A DNA stretch of 64,000 bases from NCBI GenBank assembly GCA_016177875.1, contig JACOUL010000020.1, positions 1-64,000 of the forward strand, given 5' to 3'. The stretch is from Burkholderiales bacterium (GTDB lineage: Bacteria; Pseudomonadota; Gammaproteobacteria; Burkholderiales; Burkholderiaceae_D). Shown one piece after another: positions 1-19,196 of this stretch. Both the position numbers and the translations under genes were made by a program. The notes below the pieces were generated by a model that worked only from the letters and a program-made list of their open reading frames with translations, made no database searches and was not told the DNA's origin. Each line of letters begins with the position of its first letter. The stretch's first letter is position 1.

Positions 1-23
1 ACGTTCTGATGAACACTACTCAT
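1..23 (-). CDS. Start of a gene running off the left edge, probably a transposase
   Basis: An ATG (positions 23-21, minus strand) follows AAGGAG (36-31) with seven bases between, a strong ribosome binding site. Only seven complete codons are visible, reading M-S-S-V-H-Q-N before the edge. Its position just inside a TGT-type element end and its orientation suggest a transposase. The family (IS481-like) is inferred from memory of the N-terminus and cannot be shown from this window. Confidence 0.4.
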
Positions 24-93
24 GGGGTTACTCCTTGGCGCTTTTAGCGCAGATTGATAAAGATTCGCACCTCTATCAAACCGGGTAACCCCA
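23..93 (-). promoter_or_regulatory. Leader inverted repeat that could mask the transposase start
   Basis: TGGGGTTAC (23-31) and GTAACCCCA (85-93) are perfect 9-bp inverted arms. Nested inside are GCGC-TTTTA-GCGC (38-50) and TTGATA (54-59) with TATCAA (74-79). In a leftward transcript the long arm pairs with the segment between the ribosome binding site and the ATG, including the A of the start codon. Such structures in insertion sequences form only in read-through transcripts from outside and block transposase translation. The repeat is seen; the function is inferred. Confidence 0.45.
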
Positions 94-108
94 CCCTTTG
101 GCAAGGTC

Positions 109-2958
109 TTACTGTACGATCAAGTCGGAACTACTACAGCTGATCTCCTTTAGCGATACTGCCTTTCTAGTATCCAATCTAAACAAAGGTTGATGTAGCC
201 CACGCTGAACGCCAAATTCCCGTGGTGAGTGAACATTGCCAAAAATGGCTGCCGTTACCTGACACACAGCATTTAGCTCGTTTTCGGTCGCCTTCGCTAG
301 CGAGTCGTTCGTACGAATTTCATTCAAAACGTTGTGCGCATGTTGGAGTTGTTTCAGCTTCCCATCGTCTGAACGAATACTGGCTTCAATCTCGATGAGT
401 TGCTCCCGTGCTTTCTGTTCAATCCCACCAAGCCGTTGCTCATTTGATGAGGCGGCTATATATTTTTCAGCGGCCGACACCGCGCTTCCCATTGGAGCAC
501 TTACTGTAGTAAGGCTAGCATTTTCGTCAATTTTTATAAACTCTTTGATGTAATCGAGATTCTCAATTGCTTGATCTATTGCAGCACACCGCTGCTCAGC
601 AATCGAAAGCATTCTCTCTTCAGGATTTTCTGAAGTTATTTCCGTTGCTGACTGAGATGCAGTAAGAAATTTCCGCTTTAACTCCTCAAGCGCCCGCTTT
701 TCTTCTGAGAGACGCTTCTCGAGCACCTTCCGTTCCTGATCAATAGTAAGCTTGGCTGCGCTAAGATCTGGTTGGGCGGAGATATCTATTCCGGAGGTCT
801 TCGCTCTAGTAATAAGCGCCTGAACCTGCACCTTCGAAAATCCAGCTTCAGCAAGAGCTTCCAACTGTTTGCGACTTCGCTCCAGCCTTTCCTCCGCGGA
901 TGAAATTTTCCCCTGCACTTCTGATATGTCTTTCAGAACATGGTCGAATCGGATGGACGTCGTATCAAGATTGCGCAATTCCGCATATCGCGAAGCGTCT
1001 CCAAGTAACGCTCTTCTTGCTTTGCATTGCGTCTGTTCCGTCATCAATAGATTGAGCCGCGCAGCGACAATCTCCAATGCTTTGTTGGCAGTTGATTCCA
1101 CACTTTCTTCAATCCTGTGGCGCAATTCGATCGCATCAAACTCGCTGCGACAAACTGGGCAGTGTTTCATGTCATGCTGAGACTCAGCAAGTCGCTTTGC
1201 AAGCCGTCGAATGTCCTGCAAAAGAACTTCATTATTCGCCTTGGTAAGCTGTAACGCCTCCAAACTGCTCTTGGTCGCCTGTATTTGGTCGGACAGCTGC
1301 CGCTCTCTTTCTATAACTTTATTAAACGCCTCATCGATAGAATCCTCCGAGAGATCGGCCTTACTCAGATCTTGAAAGGAATTAAGTAGAGGCGCGCTTG
1401 TGGCCAACTTTTTGTCGTCTGCTAGTTTTCGCTCTTCCTCCTCTATCGAACGGATGACATCAAACACGCCCGAAGCTACTGTGTTGCGTATCTCGTCAAG
1501 AAGGCTCAGTTTTTTCAGCCGATCTTGGAGAGTACTTTCAGTCCCTAAAATCTTTCTCTTTTCGGCAGAAATTTCGTTCGCCAAATTCCGTAATATCGTA
1601 ATTCTATTTTTTGCTTCTTCTCGTTGTTTTCGTATAATCCGAGGTACCACTGCCCCCTCAGCCCAATCGGCGTCGAGAATTTCACGTATTAGGGAGTACA
1701 GTCTTTGCAAATCCGGAAGAACCGCAACCTCAATGGATTGCTTTGTAAACTGATTTTTCCATTCAAGTCGCCGGAGATCTTCACTAAGCACGAGAAATGC
1801 ATGGTCGGCCTGGTTAGGTGACGCACTGGCGTTTGCAATTTGTTCCTGGGCCGTTCTCTTTTCAGCCGCCCATTTCAGAAGTCTGGTCTTTGTCTTAGAT
1901 ATTTCAGTTTCTATAGGATCGGCCAATTTAGTGATGTGACTCCAAAGATCGGCCGCCTGCGGGCCGGCGACAACCTTAGAAAGCAGATCATCGAAATCCA
2001 CATCAGGATTTTCTGCGAGAAGCGCAGCCTCATCGGTACTCAAAAAGTTATATCTTGCGAAGCTGTTCGCTAAGCTACTTCCACGCAAATCTTTAATACC
2101 GTACCACGTAAGATTTCGAGATTTCAGTTCGTCTATGGCTACGCTCGCATCAACTGGGACCTCCTCTGATTGTATATATCCACGAATGTCGGCCCTTTGT
2201 GTTGGCGAAATACGCGCGTTATCGCCACAGAATAGATATTCAATCGCTTCAAGAATCGAAGTTTTCCCGGTTCCGTTGCTACCGACTATAAGGTTTACGC
2301 TACCTAAATTGTCGAATGTGCGGTCTACCAAGTAATCTCTAAATCGCCTAATTTCAATTTTAGATATAAAGCCCTTAGCAAGAGAGTGAACGCCTTGAGT
2401 GCGCTTAACTGTGGCGCTACGCGTACGTTTTACTTGGTGTCCCTCTCCAATTACTCGAACTGATTCTGCAAGTCCTTTTTGTTCTAGAACGATATCTAGC
2501 TTCTCATTCATCAGACGTGACGTCCAACGACTTAGTACGTCACCCGCTGCCTTCGTTTCTGCTGCAGAAACGGCCAATTCTCTTTGCTGCAAGGCGTCAA
2601 TGAATTGCTGGTTAGTCAAAACAAATTTGCGCGCGTAACTTCGATCCGATTCGATCTTTGCCTTTTCTCTTATTCCTTCAGGAGAAGTTAGAATATTTTC
2701 GTCAGTAATAAAGTATAAATAATGATTCCACCGCAAATCGCCAGGCGTTTCGTAGTACGTACCTCCAAGCACCTGGTCCTGGAAATTGCCTAGCCCATCG
2801 GCCGCTTTAGTTAGGTCGGGCGCCATTGCAAAATAATGCAAGGCAAATAGCCGACCTTGGTCGTCCTTTTCCTCACATCGCAGAACATCCGGAGCAACAA
2901 CGCTCGGATTTTTCAAATATTTGGGTAAATTATTTTTGAAGATCTCGACGTTAATCAC
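109..2958 (-). CDS. Rad50-like zinc-hook ATPase, 3' end removed by an insertion
   Basis: This 949-residue frame starts with GTG, overlapping the upstream gene's stop by 4 bp (GTGA), so the two are translationally coupled. Residues 1-200 form an N-terminal region I do not recognise. A Walker A motif GSNGTGKTS sits at 226-234, followed by long coiled coil broken by a zinc hook C600-P-V-C603, as in Rad50. The C-terminal lobe begins (an IFGNVHSPREF segment), but the frame diverges after V-S-L-K-E-I-S, where the signature motif should be, and ends 10 residues later. Signature, Walker B and D-loop are all missing. In Rad50-type proteins both lobes are needed to bind ATP productively, so this copy is probably inactive. 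Genuine sequence ends at about 139; the tail is encoded by the inserted element. Confidence 0.8.
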   Translation of the reverse strand: MINVEIFKNNLPKYLKNPSVVAPDVLRCEEKDDQGRLFALHYFAMAPDLTKAADGLGNFQDQVLGGTYYETPGDLRWNHYLYFITDENILTSPEGIREKAKIESDRSYARKFVLTNQQFIDALQQRELAVSAAETKAAGDVLSRWTSRLMNEKLDIVLEQKGLAESVRVIGEGHQVKRTRSATVKRTQGVHSLAKGFISKIEIRRFRDYLVDRTFDNLGSVNLIVGSNGTGKTSILEAIEYLFCGDNARISPTQRADIRGYIQSEEVPVDASVAIDELKSRNLTWYGIKDLRGSSLANSFARYNFLSTDEAALLAENPDVDFDDLLSKVVAGPQAADLWSHITKLADPIETEISKTKTRLLKWAAEKRTAQEQIANASASPNQADHAFLVLSEDLRRLEWKNQFTKQSIEVAVLPDLQRLYSLIREILDADWAEGAVVPRIIRKQREEAKNRITILRNLANEISAEKRKILGTESTLQDRLKKLSLLDEIRNTVASGVFDVIRSIEEEERKLADDKKLATSAPLLNSFQDLSKADLSEDSIDEAFNKVIERERQLSDQIQATKSSLEALQLTKANNEVLLQDIRRLAKRLAESQHDMKHCPVCRSEFDAIELRHRIEESVESTANKALEIVAARLNLLMTEQTQCKARRALLGDASRYAELRNLDTTSIRFDHVLKDISEVQGKISSAEERLERSRKQLEALAEAGFSKVQVQALITRAKTSGIDISAQPDLSAAKLTIDQERKVLEKRLSEEKRALEELKRKFLTASQSATEITSENPEERMLSIAEQRCAAIDQAIENLDYIKEFIKIDENASLTTVSAPMGSAVSAAEKYIAASSNEQRLGGIEQKAREQLIEIEASIRSDDGKLKQLQHAHNVLNEIRTNDSLAKATENELNAVCQVTAAIFGNVHSPREFGVQRGLHQPLFRLDTRKAVSLKEISCSSSDLIVQ

Positions 2959-4694
2959 TTTTCAGGCTCCGTGATGTTGTTACCAAGCGGGACTGTTTTA
3001 TCGATAGGATTCGGCACGCGAGGCGAAAATATCTTCACCTCCGTTCCATCCTGATACACGACACTAAATCGGTCAGGCTTTTTGCCGCGTCGAGCGAACT
3101 CACCAGCCTTTGCATAGATTCCGGCAAGTTGATCCGGTCGCTTTCCAACCCCTGCATAAATTATGGTTGCCGGCTCTGGATTGCCCCCAACTGAGGTGAC
3201 GTTACAGTACGGATGAGCATGACCCCAACCGAATCTAAATTCGGCCTTTATGTCTTCAAGCGGATGTTTGAATGGAATATTCCCGATTAACGCTGCGAGC
3301 GCCTGCACTTGCGAGACGCCCTCATGTCGCGCATGCTCACCATCGGGGTCTTGTGTCACTGTTATGCGTTGGACGACCTCATCGATGCCTACCCTTGCAG
3401 TCTTGAGTTTGTCTGCCTTGTACCACTCTTCTTCAGGGGAGAACGTCCCTCCAGTAAGCTCGACAATCCGCTCCACAGCCAGCGGACTGGTCGTATGGGC
3501 CAACAGTAGTTGAGGCCCAGCTACGTTGTATCCATCACAGTATGCAGCGAATCCATCATCCAAGTGTTCAGTTCGGGGCTGCCACTGAAACGCTCCTTCA
3601 TCCCAGTGGAAAACTTGAGAAATTTCAGGGCCCAGGCGATAAGATTGGGCCGCCGGCACCCCTATATGCTTTACTTTCGTAGCCCGCAAAAGAAAGGCCG
3701 CCGGTCCGTACGAAAAGTGAAGTACGTGACATTTTTCGCTTTCATTTCTCGTGTAATAAAGGCCGGCACGATGATTACGTTCTACTCGCGCGTCGGCTGT
3801 ATCGACTTGGTTCGATCTGGTATGCCAGGCTGAACCTGCAATATTTGTTTTTATTACTTGAGTACCATTCTCGAAATGGTACTCGATACCGGCGGCCCAG
3901 TTCAAACAAACAAGCTCCGTTTTATCGCACCGAGATCCGAAAAGATGCCGCTTATACCGTGAGTAAACTTCAGCCCTAGGGTTGTCGTTCAGTTGAATAT
4001 GCAGCAGCAAAGTGTCTTCGTAACATTGAGTAAAAGTATCTTCTGGAAGACCTAAAACGTCAGAACATATAAACGTGATGAGGCGAATTTCTGATCGCGG
4101 TCCTTCAAAAATATAGATTTCCGTCCCTTTAACCATTGATTCAACTTCAGTGTTAGCAGGATCGCCGGACGGATGCGTCTTAAATTGAACCAGCATGACC
4201 AATCTATTTGAATCGTCTGCGTTGGCTTTGGTACGAAACAGGTAAATTAAAGGATTGTAGTAAACGGCGGTGTTTGGCTCCAACCGAGTAGGGTCAATGG
4301 ATTCGTGAATCACCGTTGCTTGATTAGCGAACCGCTGCTTTAGTCCTTGGGCCTCGCCGATGCTGAGACTCTCGCAACCTAGTACCCAGATTTTCCCTTC
4401 CTCAGGCCCACCGCCCGTCTGCAGCAGTGCTTCTATTACGCTCCAAGGAACGCTGTACTCCGGCGACACTAGAAGTTCGATTCTTTCTGCGATTGCCAAG
4501 TTAATCGCACCCGTTGCAAGACGCTCCGCGGTGTCACCGTTTAAGTTGCGAATTCCTGTCCGAGAAACAGAAATTTGCGCACGCGGCTGAACAAGTAACG
4601 CGGTATAAAGCGACTCGTCGGCCTTAAGAACCGAAAGCTGCGGATAAGCGAGGCCTTCTTGCTCAAGGACCTGTTTGACCGATGTGGGGACCAT
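2955..4694 (-). CDS. Nitrilase-fold (carbon-nitrogen hydrolase) protein, defence-associated
   Basis: The 579-residue product shows the three catalytic positions of the nitrilase superfamily in the right order and spacing: Glu79 in LVSPEYS, Lys172 in VQFKTHPS and Cys210 in TFICSDV. A later segment (LNWAAG around 264-269, then IAGSAW around 285-290) matches the N-x-x-G and G-S strands of the same fold. The last 250 residues form an extra domain I do not recognise. Nitrilase-fold enzymes hydrolyse or transfer amide and nitrile groups; the substrate here is unknown. The gene lies 172 bp downstream of the WYL regulator and overlaps the Rad50-like ATPase by 4 bp, so it is probably the enzymatic partner of that ATPase. 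The fold assignment rests on motifs only. Confidence 0.7.
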   Translation of the reverse strand: MVPTSVKQVLEQEGLAYPQLSVLKADESLYTALLVQPRAQISVSRTGIRNLNGDTAERLATGAINLAIAERIELLVSPEYSVPWSVIEALLQTGGGPEEGKIWVLGCESLSIGEAQGLKQRFANQATVIHESIDPTRLEPNTAVYYNPLIYLFRTKANADDSNRLVMLVQFKTHPSGDPANTEVESMVKGTEIYIFEGPRSEIRLITFICSDVLGLPEDTFTQCYEDTLLLHIQLNDNPRAEVYSRYKRHLFGSRCDKTELVCLNWAAGIEYHFENGTQVIKTNIAGSAWHTRSNQVDTADARVERNHRAGLYYTRNESEKCHVLHFSYGPAAFLLRATKVKHIGVPAAQSYRLGPEISQVFHWDEGAFQWQPRTEHLDDGFAAYCDGYNVAGPQLLLAHTTSPLAVERIVELTGGTFSPEEEWYKADKLKTARVGIDEVVQRITVTQDPDGEHARHEGVSQVQALAALIGNIPFKHPLEDIKAEFRFGWGHAHPYCNVTSVGGNPEPATIIYAGVGKRPDQLAGIYAKAGEFARRGKKPDRFSVVYQDGTEVKIFSPRVPNPIDKTVPLGNNITEPEK

Positions 4695-4866
4695 ATTTAA
4701 AGTTCGGCGCCTGTGCTTTAGTACAAATTCGGGAAATTGCGCTTAGCAGACGATTCTATCGACGAGATTACGTCTTTGCCACCCCATAAATCTGGTAGCG
4801 CCAAAATACCGCATGTGAATTGTTTGTCGAAATCACCGAATCAAGAGCGTCTCTTTTTAAACGACT

Positions 4867-5721
4867 TCACATTGGCACGATCTCTACAATGATCACTTGC
4901 TGGGCATTTGGCGATTTATCGACACCGTCCTCCACACCGAGACGTCTTTTTAAATAAAACAGGAGCGCACGGCGCACCACGATCTCAGCTTTACCGTTTT
5001 CCATCGCATAGTCTCGTTCGATAATTTCGTGCTGGCCTGCAGCTAACCCTGGATTCGCCGCAATGACCACACGGAAATGTTCGTTCCATTCTTCATCACG
5101 TTCTGGCGATACCTCGGCAGGACGACTTCCCCTAATATCAAGAATTCGTCCCAATACAAAATCGCGAAATGCTGATCTATGCTGACAATATGCGCGCACA
5201 TGCCAGCGCATGCCATCAGATGCAAGCGCATGCGGTTCAATCCATCGCCAACCAGGTAGGTCTGTACTAATCGACTGATACCTGATTTCTATAGCAGTTT
5301 TCGCCTTTATCGCTTGAACAATGGTACGCAGCGTAGAAAAGTCCATCCGCCTTTCGGGCGACGGAAGCACATCAAATGGTGGAGTAAAGTTCAAGACACC
5401 ATGAAGTCCTGACGGGGACTCATCGTGTTCGCTCATAGTCAATTGAGCGAAATAATTCTCAGCCGTTGGATTTATGAATACTGGCTTGAAGGCAGGAGTG
5501 GCGAAGTAAAACTTTCGACTTTTGTCGTATTCGACATTTGCAGGTGCCCGGGCTATGTATTCGCGAAGATCTAAGGATGCCTGGGGAACTGACACGCCGA
5601 AAACCTCAATAAGGTCGCCACGATTGATGCGGCCGTCCCACGTCAATCGAAAATCGATAAATCGCAGCCTTTGTAAAACGCTCCACGATGGATCTGAGCG
5701 TTGAATCTCTAATTCTTTCAT
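4867..5721 (-). CDS. WYL-domain transcriptional regulator (BrxR/CapW-like)
   Basis: The 284-residue length matches BrxR/CapW repressors. Residues 14-75 look like a winged helix-turn-helix. Residues 134-197 are a WYL domain with the typical run of IRYQS, IEPHAL, RWHVRAYC and FRDFVLGRI. Residues 216-262 resemble the C-terminal extension. BrxR and CapW bind palindromes at defence-gene promoters and release them on a ligand signal. This gene heads the leftward nitrilase/ATPase group and is divergent from jetA across 158 bp, so it could control either or both. An imperfect palindrome at 5768-5785 is a candidate operator. Family confidence is high; its targets are inferred from position. Confidence 0.88.
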   Translation of the reverse strand: MKELEIQRSDPSWSVLQRLRFIDFRLTWDGRINRGDLIEVFGVSVPQASLDLREYIARAPANVEYDKSRKFYFATPAFKPVFINPTAENYFAQLTMSEHDESPSGLHGVLNFTPPFDVLPSPERRMDFSTLRTIVQAIKAKTAIEIRYQSISTDLPGWRWIEPHALASDGMRWHVRAYCQHRSAFRDFVLGRILDIRGSRPAEVSPERDEEWNEHFRVVIAANPGLAAGQHEIIERDYAMENGKAEIVVRRALLFYLKRRLGVEDGVDKSPNAQQVIIVEIVPM

Positions 5722-5879
5722 AAGCCCAATATTAGCATAATAATTAGATTGACATATAAACTATACCCATGCCAAGATTGGCGTGTGAATTATATCAAGA
5801 TATTTTTTATACGGACCTCTTGGATTTCAGGTTTGAGATCTTCCTTCAAGACGGTATGCGGAATTTTGTGTAAATAACG
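5722..5879. promoter_or_regulatory. Divergent control region between WYL regulator and jetA
   Basis: This AT-rich 158-bp spacer separates two divergent defence operons. It holds an 18-bp imperfect palindrome at 5768-5785 (inner arms GCCAA and TTGGC around GA, one further outer mismatch) and a perfect ATATC-AA-GATAT at 5792-5803. Either would suit a dimeric WYL repressor. Leftward, a TATTAT-like hexamer lies near the regulator start. No strong ribosome binding site precedes jetA. Confidence 0.5.
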
Positions 5880-7226
5880 ATGAATTGGATACCTTTGCTG
5901 GCATCGGTGGCACGCCTACTGGATGTTCACGACTCACAGCGGACGTTGGGGACCGCGCCGGAATGGGCGAACGAAGTCCGTAACGGCCATAGGGACGGCC
6001 TTTATTTGGACATTGCCACCATCGTCATGGAAACAATCTCGGAAGCCGAGCGCAGCACCTCGGATGAATACGTATCGTTCGATGAAATAGTCAGAGCAGT
6101 GTTCGCACGAGATGTTCACGCCGGTCAAGAGGATGTTTTGTACGTGCTGAACGTGCTTCGATCACCGTCGGAGCTCTGGTACGTCGCCCGCAATCACGAT
6201 GTTCAAGCACTGCAATCAGACAAAAACACCGCGCTCATTGTTAAAACTACGAACGCCGCAGAATACAAACTGAGTCAAGCCGGGCGAGCCGCCGTCGCAC
6301 TAGCAAATTCGTATCAAAGCATCGCCTATATGGAGGGCGACGCACTAAAGATGTTACGTGCGATCGAGGAGAACGACTTTCTGCATTTCATACAATTCGC
6401 CGATGAACTGACTGCGCAAATCCGGCGGGAAATTCTGACGATCCGCGAGCATCTAGAAAAAACGGGACTTAACAACGGCGCAAACGAGTATATCCGCGAC
6501 TCAGCGCGATATCGAAGAATTACAGAAAACACCTTGTCGACCGTTAGTAGCGCAGAGCATGCTTTACACGCCCCCGACATCGCATCGCGGATCGAGTTGT
6601 GGCAGGGCTCTGATGGGCGTGGCATTACCTATGAAATGTTACGCGCAAGAGTAAGGCGCATCCGACAGGTTCTCGAGCAATTTTCACGACTACTACTTGA
6701 ATTGGTAAGAACCAGCCTTCAAAGCGGAAAGTCCTCGATCTCCCCACCCTCATTCATCGAACTCGGCATCTCATTTGTTCTAAATCCCCCGACCGAAGAC
6801 AAACTCGATTGGTTGCTGCGTCAATGGGGAGCACTGGAAACGCGTACCCCCTTTTTCTCGGCATTAGACGGTGAAGGGACTATCACAGGCTCAGGCGTTT
6901 CGCGCAAGCCGATTGGCGAAGTATTTAACGACGAAAAAATCCAAGCCGACGAATTTGTCGGAAGACTGCGATTTGTTGATTGCTATGCCTCTCAGATCAC
7001 CGAGGCTCTATCCGCAGGCCCACTAAATCTATCAACTGCAATCGACAACGGCTGGTTTATTGTTGGCGAAGCGGAGCAGATCGCTGACCTTATCGGAGTA
7101 TTTACATCGCCAGCCGCATTGAAATTGCCAGGCGTCCTCGAAATAAGATTGCAAGAACAGACGAGTACGCGGATCACAAACGCCGGCACCTTGCTGTTTA
7201 ACGATTTGGAGTTGCGACTGACATGA
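5880..7226 (+). CDS. jetA: Wadjet component JetA (MksF/kleisin-like)
   Basis: The 448-residue product is the first gene of a four-gene operon whose order and contents match Wadjet: kleisin-like JetA, small JetB, SMC JetC and toprim JetD. It is mostly helical with no catalytic motif, as expected for the MksF-type subunit that bridges the JetC heads. An upstream in-frame ATG at 5856 runs into a stop, so ATG 5880 is the first usable start, though no clear ribosome binding site precedes it. It overlaps jetB by 4 bp (ATGA). Wadjet recognises small circular DNA by loop extrusion and cleaves it, blocking plasmids. The assignment rests mainly on operon context plus JetC and JetD. Confidence 0.78.
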   Translation: MNWIPLLASVARLLDVHDSQRTLGTAPEWANEVRNGHRDGLYLDIATIVMETISEAERSTSDEYVSFDEIVRAVFARDVHAGQEDVLYVLNVLRSPSELWYVARNHDVQALQSDKNTALIVKTTNAAEYKLSQAGRAAVALANSYQSIAYMEGDALKMLRAIEENDFLHFIQFADELTAQIRREILTIREHLEKTGLNNGANEYIRDSARYRRITENTLSTVSSAEHALHAPDIASRIELWQGSDGRGITYEMLRARVRRIRQVLEQFSRLLLELVRTSLQSGKSSISPPSFIELGISFVLNPPTEDKLDWLLRQWGALETRTPFFSALDGEGTITGSGVSRKPIGEVFNDEKIQADEFVGRLRFVDCYASQITEALSAGPLNLSTAIDNGWFIVGEAEQIADLIGVFTSPAALKLPGVLEIRLQEQTSTRITNAGTLLFNDLELRLT

Positions 7227-7981
7227 GAATACAAGACGTAGGCCGGATCCACGGCTACCTGATTCGCCATCGCCAAATTGGCACGAAAAGCGAGCGTGGC
7301 GGGGTCGACAAGGAAGAGCGCGCAATCGCTATTTCTCTTCGTGACGCCGGTCCGGAGGCAAAGGCGCTATTGCGTCAACTATTTGAAGGACAAGGCTTAG
7401 TGCTGCACGAATTCGGCGAGTCAGATGTGAAAGGAACGGGTGGAGGCACCGTATTCGTTCTCGCGCGCTCACCGGAGTCTAGAGTTCCTTTTTTTGGATA
7501 TGAACAGCTCATCTTCAACATGAAGCAAAACAACGATACCCAAGCGGATGCAAAGACTTGGTTCGTACACATCTGGTTCGTGTTACTTGATCTGTTCTAT
7601 ACGAGCAGGCAGCGTGGTCCCGCCGAAATGCAAGGCTACGTCGACACTACTTTCACCACCGACGTCTTGGTGCAGTCAGTAAGGAAGTATCTCTATGATC
7701 ATGTCCGAAAGATAGACCGGCAGTCTATCTTGGATACATCAGTTTACGAAACCTTGTTATCTGAAAAGAAGAAGCGACTAGAGAGATACTGCTCGTCGTT
7801 TCTCGAACTGATGCTTGACGCTCACTTGATCGAGCGACGGGGTGTCGATACATATCGACAATCGCTTTTAAGCGCATACGAAATGAAATTGAATTTTGAC
7901 AGGCAGTTGGCGCTTCTTTTGCCGTCTGCTACGCCTATTGATGCGGCCCACGCTCTTCTAATCACGCCAGAAGACGCATGA
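7223..7981 (+). CDS. jetB: Wadjet component JetB (MksE-like)
   Basis: The 252-residue product has the size and position of the MksE-like winged-helix subunit that binds the kleisin in Wadjet and MksBEF condensins. It starts at the ATGA overlap with jetA and is followed 19 bp later by jetC. The N-terminal part (EERAIAISLRDAG, then LVLHEFGESDVKGTGGG) has no enzymatic motif; the C-terminal half is helical. Stoichiometric coupling with JetA is suggested by the overlap. The call depends on operon context more than on recognisable sequence. Confidence 0.75.
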   Translation: MRIQDVGRIHGYLIRHRQIGTKSERGGVDKEERAIAISLRDAGPEAKALLRQLFEGQGLVLHEFGESDVKGTGGGTVFVLARSPESRVPFFGYEQLIFNMKQNNDTQADAKTWFVHIWFVLLDLFYTSRQRGPAEMQGYVDTTFTTDVLVQSVRKYLYDHVRKIDRQSILDTSVYETLLSEKKKRLERYCSSFLELMLDAHLIERRGVDTYRQSLLSAYEMKLNFDRQLALLLPSATPIDAAHALLITPEDA

Positions 7982-8000
7982 TATTCACAAAGGAACAACG

Positions 8001-11000
8001 ATGCTTATCAATCAAATCGGCCTTACCAATTTTTTATGCGAAGGCTATGAAAAAGCCGAAAAAAAGACCGAGTGGATACCGCTATACCGCGGCAATGAGA
8101 TTTGGCTAGGCGGGCATTCCGCAGCCGTCCAACTCAGAAATGGCGCGGGCAAGACATCCATCGTGGACGCCTCACTTTACTTACTAAGCCGTCATTCCGA
8201 ACTAAAGACTCGCATTTTGAAGCGTCTTGCACCGTCTACTAAGACCTGGAGTCATGTTCGCATCCAGTTTTGTAAACGAACCGGCGATCCCAGACAAGCC
8301 GGCTTGACCTCCTTCGCAGAAGCGGACTTCCCTGGCGAAAAATACGTCGTCGGCATGTGCGGTTATCGCGACGAACAAGAGCCTCACTTCTACTACTATC
8401 CGGGCGACTTTGCCGCTGCGCCTACCTACCTGATTGAAGGTACCAAACGCCGGCTGGTCGACAACGACACCTTCAAACAAAGCGTAAAGCGCATCGACGG
8501 ATTTCGGTGGAATGCCTGGGGGCGCCTAAAGGACTGGCGTAGCTTCGTGGACGAGTTTATTTCCATTGACGTGGTTGACGAGAATGTGGATTTTCAGCTC
8601 GCCGGCGGCGGTGATGCGTCGGCGACCCTGCAAAAAGTCGTTTGCCGTCATGAGGAGGATTACGACGCTGCTTTTTTTCGGACGGTCATTGCACCTGAAC
8701 TGTTGAAAGACGCAATGGGCGAAGAAGGAGACGATGGAGAACGGCGGTTCGAAAAGACGGTCGTGCGCAGTCTTCAGGGCATAGCGCGTACAACAGTCGA
8801 AGCAGAAGCATTTGAGCGAGAGGCGCAGTCTGCAGAGCTCGCCTTGACGCATCTGGATCCGGTTATCGACCGCGCCAACTCAGTAATTGAGGCATCACGT
8901 GCCGAGGGCGCCGCCACCGACGAAATTGGGAAAGCTGCTTCATTCATTCAACATATCGCCGAAAAGGACCCTATTCCGGGATTACCCCGTTTACCAAACT
9001 GGAATTCGTTGGACAAACGCGTGGCGAACGTCCTGCAATACATGGTCCTCACATCATCGGATTGCCTATTAACAACTAGGGGACTAGAGGAATTAACTGG
9101 CGTTCTGGTGAAGCATATAAACGAAACCGCAAGCCGACAGAACATTTTCGGCAAGGAATTACCATCTCAAGTCCTTGATTTTAAATGCGACTTCAAGTTT
9201 TCGGAGGCGGCCGCGTGGGGCGGCACACGCAAACCTCAGACAGGCTATTCCGAAGAGGCCGCGCTAGCGCTTCTGACAAAATTGGAGGGCGCAGCGAAGA
9301 AAAATCTCGATGGCGTGCCGGCCGCCATAACCAACGCTTTCTTTATCGCGCGCGGCTTGGACACGAACCCTTACCGCACCAAGCTTGCCGACGCAAGAAA
9401 TCAGTTGGCCAAAGCCGCCGAAGCTCAGATACAGGCAGCGGCAGAATTTGAAGAAGCAGATTTGGAATTGAGCAAATATCACAAGCAGCAGGGTGAAGTC
9501 GCCGAGAACCAAACTGCCTACCAGGATTTCCTCAGCCATGCCAATGAATTCCCCGAGCACCTGCGCGATTCCCCACGACTGGCAGAAACCTGGATGCTTG
9601 CTGAGCGGAGTGCAAAACAAGAAGAACGGGATGTACACATAAGGAAGGAAGGAACATTGAAGGCGCCTTACGCCGACTGGCGCCACCTCAAGGAGTTTTA
9701 CGGCGACGTTCAACTGGTCGATGCTATGCAGGCCCTAAATGCGGATAAAGCCGCGTTAGAGCAAAGCAAGGCCCTCGCCGCAGCCGAAAAGGACACCGCG
9801 GACGAACGGCAGCGCCTGGCACATCAGGCACGGGAAGACCACATCGAAAAGAAGGTTGCACTATCGCCCAAGTTCGAAATTTGGAAAAATCTCAAAAAGC
9901 GATATCAGAATGCAGAGCTAACTGACGCTTTGCGTATGCTCGAGGGGGAGAAACCAATTTTAGAAGAAGGCAGAAATGCCGCCGCGACCAACGAACGAGA
10001 AATCCTGCAGCGTCGCGATGAATTGCAAATTCGGCTCAAAGCAAAAGACAGAGAATTGGAGGCGTGCCGGATAACGGTAGGCAAACTTGAAGACCTCTCA
10101 CAGTATTCCGCTGCGTTCCGTACTATTTTTGGGGACGTGGATCCCAATACGATTAATCCGCGGCAAGAAGAATCGCGGGCGCAAGCGCAGCAGCAGGCGC
10201 TAAAAATTGAATTGGCCGCGCAAGTACAGACGTCGGCTTCGCTTAAAAAGCTACGTGAGTCTGCCGATGCTTTTAGGAATGAATTTGGCGACGTAGATGC
10301 TCTAGCGCTTGATCCCAGCGCAGATCTTGATCGTCACAGGACTGCTATCGCAGACCTTAATTTGATTCTTCAAAAACACCAACCACTCGCAACAGCGCTC
10401 GTTTCGTTCGCCAAAACGTACCCGAACAAAGCGCCCGCCCAGTGGTTGATAGAAGCGGACATGAACCGAGGCGTCCTTTCCGCTCGTAAGGTCGAAGCTC
10501 AAACACAGATAGGCGAGTGTCAGCGGCAGTTAGATGCACTGGAAAACCATTCTGTCGCGGATGATCGGATATTTGCAGACGCATTGGCGGAGCTCGACAA
10601 AGCGGGGATCAAGTACTCTCGCCTATATGAAATAGTGAATCAGGAAGCGGCCAACGAAACCAAAAAAGCCGACCTATTGTCCGTATTTTCCGCCACTCTG
10701 TCGGCACCAATATTTGCAAATGTCGAATCTGCGCGTATGGCGGCAGTATTACTTGACGAGAAGAGGGTGACAGTTCCAGTCTTTCTTCTAGATCCACTGC
10801 GAGCTTTCTTCGCTCAGGCAACAATTCAAAAATATAGCGACTTTGCATCCGCAACCTTCTTTGCGGGCCGGCGCACCAGGCAAGTGGACATTCTTCTGAA
10901 CCCGAAATTGATTCAAGAAGAAAAGGTTCGCATTACAGAAAGTCTAAAGAGACTTACCAATTCGGTCCAACTCATCGACGACGAACTATCTAAAATTGAG

Positions 11001-13253
11001 GTGGCGGGCGAACAAGTCCAGTTCGCGCTATACGCAAAGCGCGCTGTCGACGAAGGCTCCGTGCCCATTGCGCAGCAAGCAGAGGCCGAATTGGCGGCGC
11101 TGAGCGTGCATAGCTCGGAACTAGAACGACGGGCCTCAAAGGAAAATCATGCACTCATTGCAGAGACGATTCGCTTTAATGAACTGGGAGGCCATGCCGC
11201 TCTAAATGTATTATTGGAGAAGAGTTTGCCCGAGCAGGAACGTGCCATCGAAAACGTAGAAAATATTCTCAATGAGGTGCGAAAGAAAACCACCAATGCC
11301 GCATTGACCGCGTTAAACAACGTTCGTTCATACCTTAGCCTTGGCGGCGACACCGAGTTAGAAGCTCGCCGGGCAGCCTTAACTACGCTGATGCAGGAGC
11401 ACGCCGAAATTGAAGAGCGATTTGAACTAATAAATACTCAATTCATTGAGGCCGCAGTTGCCAATAGACAGGCGGAGCGGATTCTTTCCGAATTCATGGA
11501 AACGTTTGAAAGCCAGCGACAACAGCTCGCCACCTCGATTGAATTCGAAATCAGTCATCTCGCATTCATGCAGACGGTCGAACAAACTGAAAGTACTCTT
11601 ACTCAATCCCTGGACTACGCAAAGGCGCAGGCTCGCGATGCAGACAAAGAAAGGTCGCGCGCTGAAAGTACTCTACTGAGCTTTATCGGGCAGTACGAGA
11701 ATGCCCATTCCAGGCTAAAAGCCGCGATTGAGTTTGAAACGAGTGAATTGGCTTTTATGCAAACCGCTAGTCAAACTCTGCGGACTATTAGCGCCACGCT
11801 CGACAGCATTGAATCGCTGCTGAAAATTAACTTCGAACGCGCTCAGTTGTACCGGGACCGAGACATCGCGGACGCCATAGATTACGCCACGCTTATAGGC
11901 AACGCAGAAGCGAAAAAGAAGCTGGCCTCGACCAAGGGAAAATTGGCCGTCGATGCGCAGCATGACGCGAACGGGTGGATAAATAAATGGAACACTCTTT
12001 CGATGTGCTTACACGAGCTCTGCCTTGGCATTGTCAAGCAAAGCAATAAACTGGCATCCGTCAAAGAAGTCGTTCAAGAGCGCACGGCGTTCCTCTCGCC
12101 GGACGCTCACCCATTAGCGCCTGAAATTGAAACACTCCGCCTTAGATTCCTAGCCAAGGAGCCGGCTGCTGACATTGAAAGCTTGATTCGCGACCTGAAT
12201 AATCAGTTTGAACAAATCAATATAGACGTCCAGGTGCGTGAACTGACTACGCAATCGGCCTTGTTAAGAAAGGCAAAAAGTGAATTCGACGCCAAGCGCA
12301 ATGAGTTTTGCTCAAAAGCGCGCAACAAGGAAATTAGTGGACTTTTTGAATTAGAGATTGCACATGTCGAACGCGCGAACACCCTGGCGGAGTTGACCGC
12401 AGTCCGTCAAATTAGCGCCGGCGTGCGTATTAGAATTGATGAAGCGCGCAAACATGTTGAAGACAAAAAGGCGACCATAGAAGAAGCGTCGAAAGCAACA
12501 ATCAGCAACCTCGTCAGCTTCGCGCGAGGCGCAGAAGCAAACTTGAAGACGTTAGACGCGGTAATGGCGCGGACGCCAAATGCACGCTTTTTTGTGGAAG
12601 CGGAAGTCGCAAGCGAGGAGACTATCCGCCAGATGGTTACATCGTTACTTGAACGAATTCAGGATCGCGAAAAGGGAGCGATTGCCAACTCAGCTGCGAC
12701 AGCATTGGCTACAACGCGGCGGGACGTAGAGTATATGCGCATGGTGCATGAGGTAATTTACGAAGATATTTTTATCGACGCACGGATACATTTCACGATC
12801 AACGCGATTTGGAAAGGCGACAAGTCCCGGCTTGTGGGGGATATCCCGTCGGGCGGGCAAAAAACTGCGCTGGGCATGCTTTGGATGATTAAGCAGTCGG
12901 ACTATGCGCTGGAAATTGTCTTACGTGATCGCGCGAGTTCTGCAAAAGAACGACAACGACTTGCCGGCCGTCGTGACCGTGTTCTGTTTTTCGATGGTCT
13001 ATTCAGCAATCTCACTGATGAACGGATCATTGACGATGTATTCCAGGGATTAAAGAACGTTGTCGGACATTTTCAATTGATCGGCTTGATACATAATCCA
13101 AACTATATAAATAACACCGACGTGTTTCCTGTTCATTTGGTCGGCGCGAAAATAGGCGAGACCTTTATGGCCGTCGAACCTTGGCAGGAAGGCGGCGAAA
13201 CGACCATCTTCAAGAGTTACTACAAGCCGAAGCAGAAAGATCTTCATGCCTGA
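8001..13253 (+). CDS. jetC: Wadjet SMC ATPase JetC (MksB-like), unusually long
   Basis: This 1750-residue SMC-type protein has an N-terminal head with Walker A (RNGAGKTS, 46-53), a very long coiled coil, and a C-terminal head with the ABC signature PSGGQKTALGM (1616-1626) and a Walker B-like RVLFFDG (about 1660-1666). The residue after the Walker B aspartate is Gly, where SMC proteins normally have the catalytic Glu. Length is far above the roughly 1,100 residues of the characterised E. coli JetC. Internal duplicates in the arm explain part of this, for example IEFEISHLAFMQT and IEFETSELAFMQT. AGGA at 7991-7994 lies six bases before the ATG. It overlaps jetD by 8 bp. Expected role: ATP-driven DNA loop extrusion to sense circular DNA. 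Confidence 0.87.
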   Translation: MLINQIGLTNFLCEGYEKAEKKTEWIPLYRGNEIWLGGHSAAVQLRNGAGKTSIVDASLYLLSRHSELKTRILKRLAPSTKTWSHVRIQFCKRTGDPRQAGLTSFAEADFPGEKYVVGMCGYRDEQEPHFYYYPGDFAAAPTYLIEGTKRRLVDNDTFKQSVKRIDGFRWNAWGRLKDWRSFVDEFISIDVVDENVDFQLAGGGDASATLQKVVCRHEEDYDAAFFRTVIAPELLKDAMGEEGDDGERRFEKTVVRSLQGIARTTVEAEAFEREAQSAELALTHLDPVIDRANSVIEASRAEGAATDEIGKAASFIQHIAEKDPIPGLPRLPNWNSLDKRVANVLQYMVLTSSDCLLTTRGLEELTGVLVKHINETASRQNIFGKELPSQVLDFKCDFKFSEAAAWGGTRKPQTGYSEEAALALLTKLEGAAKKNLDGVPAAITNAFFIARGLDTNPYRTKLADARNQLAKAAEAQIQAAAEFEEADLELSKYHKQQGEVAENQTAYQDFLSHANEFPEHLRDSPRLAETWMLAERSAKQEERDVHIRKEGTLKAPYADWRHLKEFYGDVQLVDAMQALNADKAALEQSKALAAAEKDTADERQRLAHQAREDHIEKKVALSPKFEIWKNLKKRYQNAELTDALRMLEGEKPILEEGRNAAATNEREILQRRDELQIRLKAKDRELEACRITVGKLEDLSQYSAAFRTIFGDVDPNTINPRQEESRAQAQQQALKIELAAQVQTSASLKKLRESADAFRNEFGDVDALALDPSADLDRHRTAIADLNLILQKHQPLATALVSFAKTYPNKAPAQWLIEADMNRGVLSARKVEAQTQIGECQRQLDALENHSVADDRIFADALAELDKAGIKYSRLYEIVNQEAANETKKADLLSVFSATLSAPIFANVESARMAAVLLDEKRVTVPVFLLDPLRAFFAQATIQKYSDFASATFFAGRRTRQVDILLNPKLIQEEKVRITESLKRLTNSVQLIDDELSKIEVAGEQVQFALYAKRAVDEGSVPIAQQAEAELAALSVHSSELERRASKENHALIAETIRFNELGGHAALNVLLEKSLPEQERAIENVENILNEVRKKTTNAALTALNNVRSYLSLGGDTELEARRAALTTLMQEHAEIEERFELINTQFIEAAVANRQAERILSEFMETFESQRQQLATSIEFEISHLAFMQTVEQTESTLTQSLDYAKAQARDADKERSRAESTLLSFIGQYENAHSRLKAAIEFETSELAFMQTASQTLRTISATLDSIESLLKINFERAQLYRDRDIADAIDYATLIGNAEAKKKLASTKGKLAVDAQHDANGWINKWNTLSMCLHELCLGIVKQSNKLASVKEVVQERTAFLSPDAHPLAPEIETLRLRFLAKEPAADIESLIRDLNNQFEQINIDVQVRELTTQSALLRKAKSEFDAKRNEFCSKARNKEISGLFELEIAHVERANTLAELTAVRQISAGVRIRIDEARKHVEDKKATIEEASKATISNLVSFARGAEANLKTLDAVMARTPNARFFVEAEVASEETIRQMVTSLLERIQDREKGAIANSAATALATTRRDVEYMRMVHEVIYEDIFIDARIHFTINAIWKGDKSRLVGDIPSGGQKTALGMLWMIKQSDYALEIVLRDRASSAKERQRLAGRRDRVLFFDGLFSNLTDERIIDDVFQGLKNVVGHFQLIGLIHNPNYINNTDVFPVHLVGAKIGETFMAVEPWQEGGETTIFKSYYKPKQKDLHA

Positions 13254-14370
13254 CCTTCACGATATTCTTGTCGAACGAGTTTATGCATGGCTTGTGCGAA
13301 AGACCAAGAGCAGTTCCAGCAATAAAATGAGAACATCCGGCCTGATGACCGCGCTGATGCGTGATATTTCCCCAGACCGCATTGGTGTGCGCGTGGCACT
13401 TCGAAGCTTGCGCGAGGTGGGATCGGTTAGCTACAAGAGCGACATTTCTGGCGAACCGCTTGAGGGGAGCATGATCGAGGTAGTTCCACCACTGAAGGAT
13501 GAGCCGCAGACATTGAAAAATTGGAAGGCGGCGCTTTTTTTGGAAGGCGGATCGCAATCGGACATGGACGCACTCTCGCCCTTGCATTCTGTTTTTTCAG
13601 GTGCCACCGTAGAGCAGATGCAGGCGTTTTTTTCAGGGCTGCGTCGACTAAGACATGAGCAGGCGGCTTGGTATGGGCGCCCTAGTTTTATGGTCAGCGC
13701 CGCATTTCTATGCGGCTCAGCGAAAGCGTTGTCTATGTTTGACAAAACCGCACTGCGAATATTTGGAATAGAAGTTTCACAGTTTCCTGCTCGCCCTCCG
13801 TACATTGTAATCGGAGGAAACTGCGAAACAAGCAGGTCAGTCGTGCTGATAGAAAACCCCGTCGCATTTGAAACCGCCGTTCAATCAAAGGCGGGCGAAA
13901 GCTGCGCTTTCCTTTGCACTTTTGGCCACGGCCTCAGCATAAGCGCTAGCGAACACGGCAATCAACTCGCGTCGGTCATCGAGGGCTCCACAGGAATACC
14001 GCTCTATCGCAATACGACATCCCGTCGCCCACTCCATGAGATTCTAGGTAGCCAAAGAATATTCTTTTGGGGAGACTTGGATATGGAAGGATTGCGGATC
14101 TTTGAGAGAATAAAAAATCGACTTCCGCTACTCGAACTAAGTGCTCTATATGAGCCGATGATTAATTCAATTCGAGATCCAATTTCAAGACACGAGTACT
14201 TGAGTCTCACCGGAAAAATTGGACAAAGGCCTTTTGAGGCGGTTACACAAGCCGGCAAGCTGATAATGCCAATGTGCACAAAATATGCAGTCGATCAGGA
14301 AACCGTCTCGACACAAGACATCAATTCTTTAGCGGAGAATGGACTAGATTTTGGTAGCTTTTCGCAATGA
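13246..14370 (+). CDS. jetD: Wadjet nuclease JetD (toprim, DUF3322-DUF2220)
   Basis: The 374-residue product ends in a toprim-type DUF2220 domain. Glu203 in VLIENPVAF and the D-x-D pair Asp277/Asp279 in FFWGDLDMEG are the metal-binding residues expected for JetD, a relative of the topoisomerase VI A subunit. The N-terminal 180 residues correspond to the DUF3322 arm. Start ATG overlaps the jetC stop by 8 bp. JetD cleaves plasmid DNA once the JetABC motor has stalled around a small circle. The toprim residues are intact, so cleavage should be possible if JetC works. A 90-bp gap without features separates it from the convergent tniQ. Confidence 0.87.
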   Translation: MPDLHDILVERVYAWLVRKTKSSSSNKMRTSGLMTALMRDISPDRIGVRVALRSLREVGSVSYKSDISGEPLEGSMIEVVPPLKDEPQTLKNWKAALFLEGGSQSDMDALSPLHSVFSGATVEQMQAFFSGLRRLRHEQAAWYGRPSFMVSAAFLCGSAKALSMFDKTALRIFGIEVSQFPARPPYIVIGGNCETSRSVVLIENPVAFETAVQSKAGESCAFLCTFGHGLSISASEHGNQLASVIEGSTGIPLYRNTTSRRPLHEILGSQRIFFWGDLDMEGLRIFERIKNRLPLLELSALYEPMINSIRDPISRHEYLSLTGKIGQRPFEAVTQAGKLIMPMCTKYAVDQETVSTQDINSLAENGLDFGSFSQ

Positions 14371-14460: not shown

Positions 14461-15471
14461 TCATAAACGGTCTCTCCAGTTAGCAAACTGCGCTACGATC
14501 TTGGTGTACCAATCTGGCCTATCTGCAAAATCCTTCAAGAGATGGTTGTAACGCACGGCCCTGCATCTCCATGCCTCACCCAATCTCCGCTCGAGGTCTA
14601 CGACCAGCCATCCGGACAACTGCAAGAGATGATGACGCTCCGCAATTGGCCTTGCCTCGAACGAGACCTTCCCGGGCGTGACCGGAGGGTTCGGAATACC
14701 CAGCTGCGTCGCCACGAATTCTCGCAGACAAAGATGCTTATACCGCGACGTCATCAGCGTACATAAGTGTCGTAGAACCTCGAGTTGGCCGATCTCCGTT
14801 TTTGCCGGCATTTCATCGGCGGGCAACTGGCACAATGCGCGCAATAAGGTCGAGGCGGCTTTGTCGTATTTTTCGGGCATTTCCACCGAGCTTGCTCGCA
14901 AGTCGAATCCACATTCGAAGCAATACGAGAGCGGCAGATCCTCGATCGCTTTCGACGTAGCCATGTCGAGTCGATGTACAGCAACCGCTGTCCCACACAC
15001 TGGGCAACGATCAAGAAGCATATTCCCGTGCCGCCTACATACAGTGACGAACGCAACTCTCCACTCCTTACGAAAATATGGAACAGCATCCGACGCAAGG
15101 CATACGGGGCAAAACTGTAGGCCAAACCCATTGCGCTTACGGTGATACATCTTGAGTGGCAATACCCAATGGAGCGTGCCTACGCTTCGAAACTGCCGGT
15201 ACAGCACGCCCTCGTAGGTCCGCAGTGTCGTGCCCCATGCGTCGATCAAGGGCGTACCGGTTCTACGGCTCAACTCATCGACGAGCCACATCGGCGCAAG
15301 TCGGTCTATATCACGGTTCCATACCTGATTTCTATTGCCAAAGATAAGATTGCAGAACGTCTGCACCTTCAGGCCATGACCATGCGCCAAGCGGACAAGC
15401 CAGCATGAGAGCAATTCATCGGGAAGCGGCTTGTAACGTATTGGCCACAGTGGTGACGTCAAGCCTCGCAT
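14461..15471 (-). CDS. tniQ: TniQ/TnsD-family target-selection protein
   Basis: The protein begins MRGLTSPLWPIRYKPLPDEL, the N-terminus typical of TniQ, and carries zinc-binding cysteine pairs: CPVC, a C-x2-H near CRRHG, CPVC and CFEC between about residues 115 and 195. TniQ/TnsD proteins choose the insertion site and recruit the TnsC ATPase. I place the start at ATG 15471, just after the tnsC stop; a frame-extending start at 15519 would overlap tnsC by 43 bp and adds nothing conserved. It is the last gene of the tnsA-tnsB-tnsC-tniQ operon. At about 336 residues it is a short TniQ, without the extended DNA-binding C-terminus of Tn7 TnsD. Confidence 0.88.
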   Translation of the reverse strand: MRGLTSPLWPIRYKPLPDELLSCWLVRLAHGHGLKVQTFCNLIFGNRNQVWNRDIDRLAPMWLVDELSRRTGTPLIDAWGTTLRTYEGVLYRQFRSVGTLHWVLPLKMYHRKRNGFGLQFCPVCLASDAVPYFRKEWRVAFVTVCRRHGNMLLDRCPVCGTAVAVHRLDMATSKAIEDLPLSYCFECGFDLRASSVEMPEKYDKAASTLLRALCQLPADEMPAKTEIGQLEVLRHLCTLMTSRYKHLCLREFVATQLGIPNPPVTPGKVSFEARPIAERHHLLQLSGWLVVDLERRLGEAWRCRAVRYNHLLKDFADRPDWYTKIVAQFANWRDRL

Positions 15472-15476
15472 GGCGG

Positions 15477-16379
15477 TTAGTGCCGCCTGTATTGCTTGCG
15501 CTTGGATGGCGGCACCCAAGGCAATGCATTGATACGATCAAGCGTGACGCATTCAACCTTGCTGCGGATGGCATCCACGGCCAACTCTTTCACCAGATCA
15601 CACATGTCGCCCAGTGTCCCTTCACTGCGGGTATGGATTGCCAACATCGTCGTCGGGTCTTTCAAGTTCGATGGCTTCCTCAGCGGAGTACGCAGTTCGA
15701 GCGTCGCCAAGAGGGAACCGAACTCGTTGCTCGCCTTCCAGAGAGGCAATTCCTCCGGCGGAAAGCGGCTGGACATCTGTGGATCAGTATTGAATGCGTT
15801 GTAAGCATCCTCGATCCCGGCCACTACCATGGTCACCATCGTCTCGTTCCCAAGGCTTTTCAAGGCGTTGCGAAATTCCTGCTGGCGGTTCAGGCTGCCA
15901 GCGATCAGGTGATGGATTTCGTCCACGATCAGCATCTTGACGTCCATCTGTCGGAACAGCTTCTTGATCTGCGAATATTTTTCCGTCACGGATGCTGTTG
16001 GCTTGTACGGCGCCATGAGCGCATCCAGGATGCGTGTATAGAAGTCTGCGATATCCGGCTTCGGCGGCGCCTCCACCATCACAACTGGGCAAATCGTTAC
16101 CTCATTGGCCGCATCCAGATCCGGCTCGTGAAGCGACATAAAGCGCCGAAGAATCGAGGTCTTGCCGTTGAACGACGGCGCGATTAACAACATATTCGGC
16201 ATACGCGTGATACGCGGATATGCAAGAAGTTCCTCCATTCGGACGAGGATCCGCTTGGCATTCTTGTAGCCGAGCCATGTTCCTTCACGGATGGCATATA
16301 TGCGATCCTCGTCGGTTCGCTCCACCAACGCCGCTGCGGCATCATTAAGGTGAGGATAAGATTTTTGCGTCGACATCAC
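15477..16379 (-). CDS. tnsC: TnsC/TniB AAA+ transposition regulator
   Basis: The 300-residue product is an AAA+ ATPase of the TniB/TnsC family. The P-loop is at 67-75 (APSFNGKTS, where the usual first Gly is Ala) and Walker B is at 150-154 (LIVDE, followed by IHHLI). TnsC polymerises on target DNA and links the target selector TniQ to the transposase. It overlaps tnsB by 4 bp (ATGA) and is followed at once by tniQ. Size and motifs are complete, so the gene looks functional. Confidence 0.9.
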   Translation of the reverse strand: MMSTQKSYPHLNDAAAALVERTDEDRIYAIREGTWLGYKNAKRILVRMEELLAYPRITRMPNMLLIAPSFNGKTSILRRFMSLHEPDLDAANEVTICPVVMVEAPPKPDIADFYTRILDALMAPYKPTASVTEKYSQIKKLFRQMDVKMLIVDEIHHLIAGSLNRQQEFRNALKSLGNETMVTMVVAGIEDAYNAFNTDPQMSSRFPPEELPLWKASNEFGSLLATLELRTPLRKPSNLKDPTTMLAIHTRSEGTLGDMCDLVKELAVDAIRSKVECVTLDRINALPWVPPSKRKQYRRH

Positions 16380-18283: not shown

Positions 18284-18942
18284 TGTCGGCCTCGCGGCAC
18301 GGTCAGGAGGGAGTTGTGATCTAGCTGCTTATCCAGGTCAGTAATGACGTGCCGATGAAGCAAGGCGTGCCAGATCACGGGGAGCCAGTGCAGGCGGTCT
18401 TCATCACAAGCTGCTAAGCGCTCCAGAAGATGTCCGGGGGTAGCAGCACCGTCAGCGAGCCTCACAAGTTCGAGAATCCGATTTCGGTCTTCCTGCGCGG
18501 GCTCGATGTTGCGGTACTCGCGCAAGAACTTGATGTTCGCTAACCGCGGCGTGCGGATGTCGAGTTGTGTCGTGACCTGGAACTCCCAGCCTGTCTCGCG
18601 CGCGAACCGTTCCGCAGCCAAAAACTTGGGGGCATACTTCTCGGCGTTGCGGTGCAGGTCATCGGTATGCTTAACTTCAGTGAGCAATGGCCTTAGGATT
18701 TCGCCGGAATTCGCGTCCGGTCGGTAATGTACAAGGACATCGGGTGTGTAGCCTTTCGCCACACCGGGAACTGGGATCGTTATAGGCTGGGTGTCAAACC
18801 GTTCAACGCGCTCATCGAAGTCCAGGAGCAGCATGTACTCCTTTTCCAGCAGAGATTCGAACGCATCCATTTCCGCATTCTTGCGGCTCGCGAATCTGCC
18901 AGTGACGACCAAATGATTTTTGGGAATCTTCCGTATAGGCAT
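18280..18942 (-). CDS. tnsA: TnsA endonuclease
   Basis: The 220-residue product has the restriction-nuclease fold of TnsA, with Asp68 (GYTPDVLV) and Glu89-x-Lys91 (LTEVKH) in the expected order and an upstream Glu (29 or 35). TnsA cuts the 5' strands at the transposon ends, giving cut-and-paste rather than replicative movement. Its presence separates this element from Tn5053/Tn402-like elements, which lack TnsA. It is the first gene of the operon, about 200 bp from the presumed right end, the usual Tn7 layout. Overlap with tnsB is ATGA. Confidence 0.9.
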   Translation of the reverse strand: MPIRKIPKNHLVVTGRFASRKNAEMDAFESLLEKEYMLLLDFDERVERFDTQPITIPVPGVAKGYTPDVLVHYRPDANSGEILRPLLTEVKHTDDLHRNAEKYAPKFLAAERFARETGWEFQVTTQLDIRTPRLANIKFLREYRNIEPAQEDRNRILELVRLADGAATPGHLLERLAACDEDRLHWLPVIWHALLHRHVITDLDKQLDHNSLLTVPRGRQ

Positions 18943-19150: not shown

Positions 19151-19196
19151 ACGTTTGCCACAAGCCCGCGCTGTTCAAGCACAGAGGAGTATGCGA

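Follow-up and report, generated by a model that had tools for sequence, protein, structure and literature searches.

A probable two-gene Lamassu (ABC-3C) defence system with a predicted nitrilase-fold effector at an interrupted Burkholderiales locus

The window analysed here comprises the first 64,000 nucleotides of contig JACOUL010000020.1 (our C46) in the Burkholderiales bacterium assembly GCA_016177875.1. At its start lie three genes on the minus strand, which read in the order of a WYL-domain regulator gene, a gene for a 579-residue protein and the frame of a zinc-hook ATPase, the last running into the end of an insertion element (Table 1). The second and third genes are our subject, and we name them lmuA and lmuB after the Lamassu (ABC-3C) genes that they resemble. 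They overlap by four bases at 2955–2958 (GTGA on the minus strand), and both open-reading frames, with their GTGA overlap, are as an earlier prediction made for this DNA (hereafter the original prediction) had described them.

Table 1 Features at the start of contig C46
Feature	Position	Strand	Description
WYL-domain regulator gene	4867–5721	−	284 residues; Pfam WYL, E 3.4e-14
lmuA-like effector gene	2955–4694	−	579 residues; predicted nitrilase-fold domain and C-terminal region
ATPase open-reading frame	109–2958	−	949 residues, GTG start; native lmuB-like part 139–2958
ATPase N-terminal domain, ABC-3C Middle Component 1 (probable LmuC part)	2380–2958	−	residues ~1–193; PF20289 MComp1
IS481-type insertion element end, interrupting lmuB	1–138		repeat matches in genome

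Amongst PADLOC families the window ATPase has LmuB as its top match (E 2.1e-18), as do the intact ATPases of relatives from a Polaromonas plasmid (2.5e-30) and a haloarchaeon (6.1e-33), and a profile of the LmuB family found its best matches among PDB sequences in the heads of Rad50 (6e-14). The window copy keeps a Walker A motif (GSNGTGKT) and a CPVC zinc hook; its signature and Walker B are gone. Among the LmuB sequences aligned, CPxC occurs in every readable one (35 of 35) and S-x-G-Q in 34 of 34; a single sequence out of 36, that of locus L002 on a Polaromonas naphthalenivorans plasmid, departs from the strict Walker A pattern (APNGMGKT). The rearranged locus L026 (see below) is set aside from these motif counts. 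The matches and the hook bear out the Rad50-like zinc-hook ATPase of the original prediction; the module that it had left unnamed is very probably a form of a known system.

The DNA at 1–138 recurs at five other sites in the genome with 98–100% identity, every one at a contig end, and is ~85% similar to Burkholderia plasmid DNA; of the 20 plasmid rows listed, 17 carry an IS481 family transposase annotation. The ATPase frame crosses into this element within the ATP-binding cassette (ABC) signature, its final nine residues are element-derived, and it falls 89 residues short of the 1030-residue ATPase of the relative L006, from Polaromonas eurypsychrophila. The lost end was not recovered when the last 104 residues of that ATPase were searched against the window's own genome; there were two weak matches (E 0.0013 and 0.04) deep within other contigs, which we take as unrelated. 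Because the IS481-type element cuts LmuB inside the ABC signature, the window copy of the system is most likely dead, and the local ATPase is broken as originally stated, whilst lmuA itself looks intact.

LmuA was modelled with AlphaFold2 from 35 family sequences (the 40 aligned less L002, L003, L007, L010 and L032), and the model, with a mean predicted local distance difference test score of 88.2, has a nitrilase fold at residues ~25–352 followed by an added C-terminal region at ~353–560. The first 350 residues matched nitrilase-superfamily structures in Foldseek (E 2.8e-8), the best structural match in the PDB was a glutamine-dependent NAD+ synthetase (Z 17.5, 239 residues aligned, root-mean-square deviation 3.8), and Z was at least 8 for 213 of 1000 aligned chains, the 50 rows shown all being nitrilase-superfamily entries. 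Structure prediction, which could have overturned the nitrilase fold proposed for this protein, upheld it, and the proposed Glu79-Lys172-Cys210 triad was confirmed by sequence alignment: E79, K172 and C210, together with E183, which we take to sit where nitrilases have their second glutamate, do not vary among the 40 LmuA sequences aligned (the window and 39 relatives), despite whole-protein identity to the window copy dropping to 20%. On model and alignment together, LmuA is a predicted nitrilase-superfamily effector with a complete predicted catalytic set. It shares the fold (Z 14.5–17.5 in the top rows) and the E-K-C residues with superfamily members such as Nit2, N-carbamoylputrescine amidohydrolase and the glutaminase of NAD+ synthetase, but differs in its added C-terminal region, its dedicated ATPase partner and the lack of any sequence match to solved structures up to E 1.

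Relatives were collected by scanning contigs from 84,980 species with a three-sequence alignment; the scan relied on two short peptide patterns, and its locus count is a lower bound. It gave 38 loci, from which L043, a fragment lacking a usable open-reading frame and outside all counts, was dropped and to which two plasmid loci were added, making 39. A full-length LmuB (994–1045 residues) directly follows LmuA in 34 of them, at spacings from an 8-base overlap to 14 bases downstream, the four-base overlap recurring in 14. The contig end is reached in three of the other five (L007, L010 and L032), LmuB is shortened in L022, and L026 is rearranged. The intact pair that was to be sought in relatives therefore exists, and the pairing is not unique to this genome. 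The 303-residue LmuB of L022 stops near 12651, 138 bases from its contig end, and the 469-residue LmuA of L032 near 11389, 24 bases from its contig end, each perhaps through a further insertion. Pairwise distances of LmuA and LmuB agree closely (Mantel r 0.977, none of 2000 permutations as high; 35 rows including the window, without L022 and L026). Shared ancestry alone yields such agreement, so it demonstrates joint inheritance rather than contact: lmuA and lmuB are inherited together.

This constancy bears on whether the 579-residue protein belongs to metabolism, as an amidase or nitrilase sharing an operon with an ATPase by chance. Its nearest folds are indeed metabolic enzymes, the N-carbamoylputrescine amidohydrolase and NAD+ synthetase named above, yet it adjoins LmuB wherever the locus is neither cut nor rearranged, and carries an extra C-terminal region of some 200 residues; by eye, the gene-order listing holds no further conserved neighbour besides LmuB. 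On the pairing and the tracking of distances we rejected the metabolic reading, which we regard as very improbable. The neighbour sample comprised 113 of 120 chosen proteins (seven large ones omitted), with seven loci unsampled (contig ends, near-duplicates and L026). Among the 25 families shown, the type I restriction, LmuB and GajB/UvrD-helicase models of PADLOC had two members each at E 1e-15, and Pfam gave ResIII (4), Phage_integrase (3), HSDR_N (2), Methylase_S (2) and Mrr_cat (2); these counts were made without a control set and imply no enrichment.

Members of the family occur in Pseudomonadota, Acidobacteriota, Nitrospirota and archaea, and the LmuA tree (without L010 and L032) mixes phyla, the archaeal L008 grouping with L009 from Nitrospirota. 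The family was found in 2 of 72,556 plasmid records, in 1 of 148 relatives' genomes, namely the window's own, and, among 369 genomes searched at class level, in its own genome along with two weak partial matches (6.0e-4 and 8.1e-4). Viral contigs gave no relatives by single-protein scan or alignment scan, and phage records no match to the family. A Rad50-like repair or recombination module, with the nitrilase protein as a structural partner that is an enzyme no longer, would suit both the Rad50 heads that head the LmuB profile's matches in the PDB and LmuA's lack of sequence matches to solved structures. It sits badly, however, with catalytic residues that are invariant across such divergent proteins, and with the traits of a conflict system, namely the patchy spread, the phylum-mixing tree and a Middle Component 1 domain, and we hold it to be unlikely by a wide measure.

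That domain lies in the first 200 residues of the ATPase, which had been described as an unrecognised domain, a description that does not stand, for it is recognisable as MComp1, the Pfam family of the ABC-3C Middle Component 1 (MC1). Residues 71–124 of the window ATPase match the family, and PF20289 was found in 22 of 23 homologous N-terminal fragments (best E 1.3e-6), the fragment alignment using 23 of 37 N-termini. Two other ABC-3C operons have MComp1 as a separate protein of 180–189 residues, encoded between an effector that bears a Pfam ABC-3C C-terminal domain (trypsin-CTD4 or Mrr-CTD3) and a large ATPase, the latter named by reading alone. From the MComp1 matches and this separate gene, the N-terminal ~200 residues most likely correspond to LmuC, here fused to LmuB. 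The MC1 model weakly resembles nuclease-type cores, including EME1 and a Lamassu LmuA nuclease (9hr5, Z 5.3). A similar fusion is found outside the present family, in a system of PADLOC type PDLC03850 from a genome of the same bacterial family (G023), where MComp1 and the start of SMC/AAA_23 lie in one protein.

The rearranged L026, from Methanosarcina sp. KYL-1, consists of three genes. The first (4866–9929) encodes 1687 residues that open with a P-loop NTPase (STAND-like by reading), contain tetratricopeptide (TPR) repeats and include an ABC head of LmuB type lacking the CPxC hook, the second (9959–11719) is the nitrilase LmuA, which has a very long branch in the tree, and the third (11742–13424) encodes 560 residues in which an MC1-like domain is joined to TPR repeats. 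It appears from this that MC1 and the ABC head are separable, and here coupled to a receptor-like part.

The pair had also been placed under a BrxR/CapW-type regulator. A WYL domain is present, and its gene lies upstream of lmuA on the same strand, 172 bases away, and divergent from a Wadjet-like operon; the linkage, however, is not kept, and control is unproven. Among open-reading frames of at least 150 residues at the 39 relative loci, phmmer found no WYL protein at E 0.01, and a 21-sequence WYL profile gave no match at E 10 among the 944 open-reading frames of the fetched flanks, which extend at least 9 kb upstream in 35 of the 39 loci. All but one of the 21 domains in the profile come from the genomes of the relatives themselves; the window WYL, scored as a control, gives 3.2e-28 but is itself in the profile. 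A single three-part defence module, with WYL as a true component beside the nitrilase protein and the ATPase, would fit the arrangement in the window, and 27 of the 38 genomes or records searched from the relatives (the L014 genome left out) do have WYL proteins elsewhere. Given that none was found in the fetched flanks of the 39 relative loci, and that the window gene is so oriented that it could serve Wadjet, we accord this module hardly any probability; as a general rule it is largely refuted, WYL was rejected as a conserved component, and the regulator stands outside the conserved module. At L020 a WYL gene lies ~18 kb from lmuA, apparently on the same 216,269-base contig and beyond the fetched flank. 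Between the window's WYL gene and Wadjet, an imperfect 20-base direct repeat (spacing 29) at 5746–5794 is no more than suggestive of an operator and may be due to chance.

We are highly confident that the system is a Lamassu (ABC-3C) system. Like these systems, DdmABC included, it combines an effector LmuA, a middle component and a zinc-hook LmuB resembling structural maintenance of chromosomes (SMC) proteins in a tight operon, and like other Lamassu LmuA proteins the 579-residue protein has an N-terminal enzymatic domain and a C-terminal region and adjoins LmuB. The middle component, which some Lamassu systems are without, is represented by the fused MComp1 domain. It differs from them in having two genes, LmuB carrying the middle component as a fusion, in a DDP/DEP Walker B and in an effector subfamily mostly unseen by the LmuA models of PADLOC v2: at E 0.1, LmuA PDLC03850 matches 6 of the 35 members and RTasNitrilase (DRT1) 5 of 35, and Pfam CN_hydrolase (PF00795) matches 3 of 35 at E up to 1 (best 0.0064). 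The window LmuA itself matches PADLOC LmuA at E 7.1e-4, and the Pfam ABC-3C C-terminal domain had no match in it, nor appeared among the families listed for the 35 members. Assignment to Wadjet was rejected, PADLOC giving LmuB and not JetC among the 25 matches shown, with Wadjet lying separately at 5880–14370. As a whole, a two-gene Lamassu (ABC-3C) defence system with a nitrilase-fold effector is our best explanation of the locus, and a probable one.

The PDLC03850-type system of G023 offers a close comparison, having an LmuA followed by an ATPase with fused MC1. In hhalign the LmuA family matched its LmuA at E 2.6e-6 (88.7% probability) with E, K and C in register over the nitrilase domain, FPE, PKL and LCFD aligning with E79, K172 and C210; it is nonetheless distant (22% identity in the aligned part) and represents a separate subfamily. 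The G023 locus (L064, 3206–9955) looks broken, with lmuA split over two frames and, by reading, a transposase-like frame at 6018–7133 inside the ATPase gene. Two separate insertions into the ATPase gene within one bacterial family hint, anecdotally, that the system is costly.

The view that nitrilase chemistry is rare in defence systems fits the DRT1 paper (PMC13275509), but has to be qualified, as PMC10586767 already lists “C-N hydrolase” among LmuA effector domains. DRT1, a reverse transcriptase-nitrilase of the class 3 UG/Abi group, likewise employs a nitrilase as an abortive-infection effector, according to PMC13275509, and differs in that the partner of the present nitrilase is LmuB and not a reverse transcriptase. 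DRT1 was rejected as an identity for our system, no reverse-transcriptase family being among the matches of the window proteins.

Nitrilases usually need oligomerisation for activity. We propose that LmuB, as a dimer, would detect the DNA ends or structures that a phage or plasmid produces. Until then, the MC1-LmuB unit would keep LmuA inactive by way of the C-terminal region of LmuA (~353–560), the proposed docking part. On sensing, LmuA would be freed and then oligomerise, comparably to Cap4-type LmuA, and the assembled enzyme would hydrolyse an amide or related C–N bond of an essential small molecule, so that the infected cell would stop growing (abortive infection). PMC10586767 considers it likely that Lamassu senses DNA structures in the manner of SMC proteins and acts by abortive infection, the PMC12409362 addendum says of the Cap4 type that LmuA is released and forms a homotetramer upon activation, and for the DRT1 nitrilase a tetramer is required, abortive infection results and the substrate is unknown (PMC13275509). 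The Lamassu and DRT1 precedents suggest that LmuB-MC1 keeps LmuA apart and that sensing lets it assemble. We rate small-molecule hydrolysis as the killing act somewhat better than an even chance, and the release-and-assemble step of LmuA, from our analysis, at about even. The full scheme, in which an SMC-type sensor with a built-in middle component would hold nitrilase subunits inactive and free them to form an active oligomer that destroys an essential metabolite, or makes a toxin from one, is tentative and falls a little short of even chances.

Several observations weigh against this reading, in its identifications as well as in its mechanism. For the effector, profile matches are weak (best E 6.3e-5 for LmuA, 8.5e-4 for RTasNitrilase and 6.4e-3 for CN_hydrolase), the majority of the 35 members match none of these three, and for LmuA of L002 and of L003 there was no match to any family in PADLOC (E 0.1) or Pfam (E 1). 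Two ordinary members of the nitrilase superfamily from the same genome also aligned weakly with the LmuA family in hhalign, the first over E and C but not K (E 0.003, 10% probability) and the second over the C region only (E 2.2e-4, 45%). MComp1 matches score close to the curated cut-off, which is 27.3 bits: the window fragment reaches 26.2, and the match found on searching the genome 27.4. For the MC1 domain, hhalign gave 13% probability, a weak value, against its G023 counterpart and 77% against the separate MComp1 of L065, and the MC1 model had no clear match in the PDB (best Z 7.4), with no solved LmuC among the rows shown. Walker B is DDP in 32 of 34 LmuB sequences and DEP in 2 of 34, whereas a Glu-to-Gln change there is given as a general trait of LmuB in PMC10586767; that change is a common trait and not a defining one for Lamassu. 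Finally, the largest assembly of DRT1, a filament, is described as its dormant state in PMC13275509, so the notion that assembly switches the enzyme on need not hold in simple form.

Further defence genes follow in the window. The Wadjet-like operon (5880–14370) contains a recognised JetD (Pfam JetD_C 5.8e-7, PADLOC 9.1e-13), its other three genes being without PADLOC match and named from position and size. Next come Tn7-like transposition genes (14461–18942), with TniQ (1.9e-30), TnsB (4.3e-33) and two further unmatched genes at the usual places of TnsC and TnsA; Mu-transpos_C has a single match in the genome, and the defence genes may be cargo of a Tn7-like element. In the region 19137–25266, possibly a further defence system, a 440-residue protein weakly matches an effector endonuclease of PADLOC (1.1e-6), and the two proteins encoded after it, of 1173 and 417 residues, have no PADLOC match at E 1e-5. 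Type I restriction-modification genes occupy 25797–32923, their methylase, specificity and restriction subunits all matched and a gene for 389 residues lying between them (27432–28601).

Nitrilase LmuA is thus a kind already known in outline, of which we describe a poorly catalogued subfamily. Our search of the open-licence literature found no paper joining Lamassu or ABC-3C with a nitrilase, nor one naming Lamassu-Amidase, and as far as our searches reach, what is new is the subfamily itself, the predicted fold and invariant residues of its LmuA, the MC1-LmuB that partners it and how widely it is spread. It would be a second nitrilase effector, with a sensor unlike that of DRT1, spanning three bacterial phyla and archaea, and comparison of the two nitrilases offers a direct route to the substrate and to testing assembly as the switch. 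The fusion of MC1 to LmuB fixes the middle component to the sensor, which should ease structural work. If our proposal is true, nitrilase assembly would, together with DRT1, be a recurring means of killing infected cells, and in the Methanosarcina locus the sensor would have been further recombined with a STAND-TPR-like receptor.

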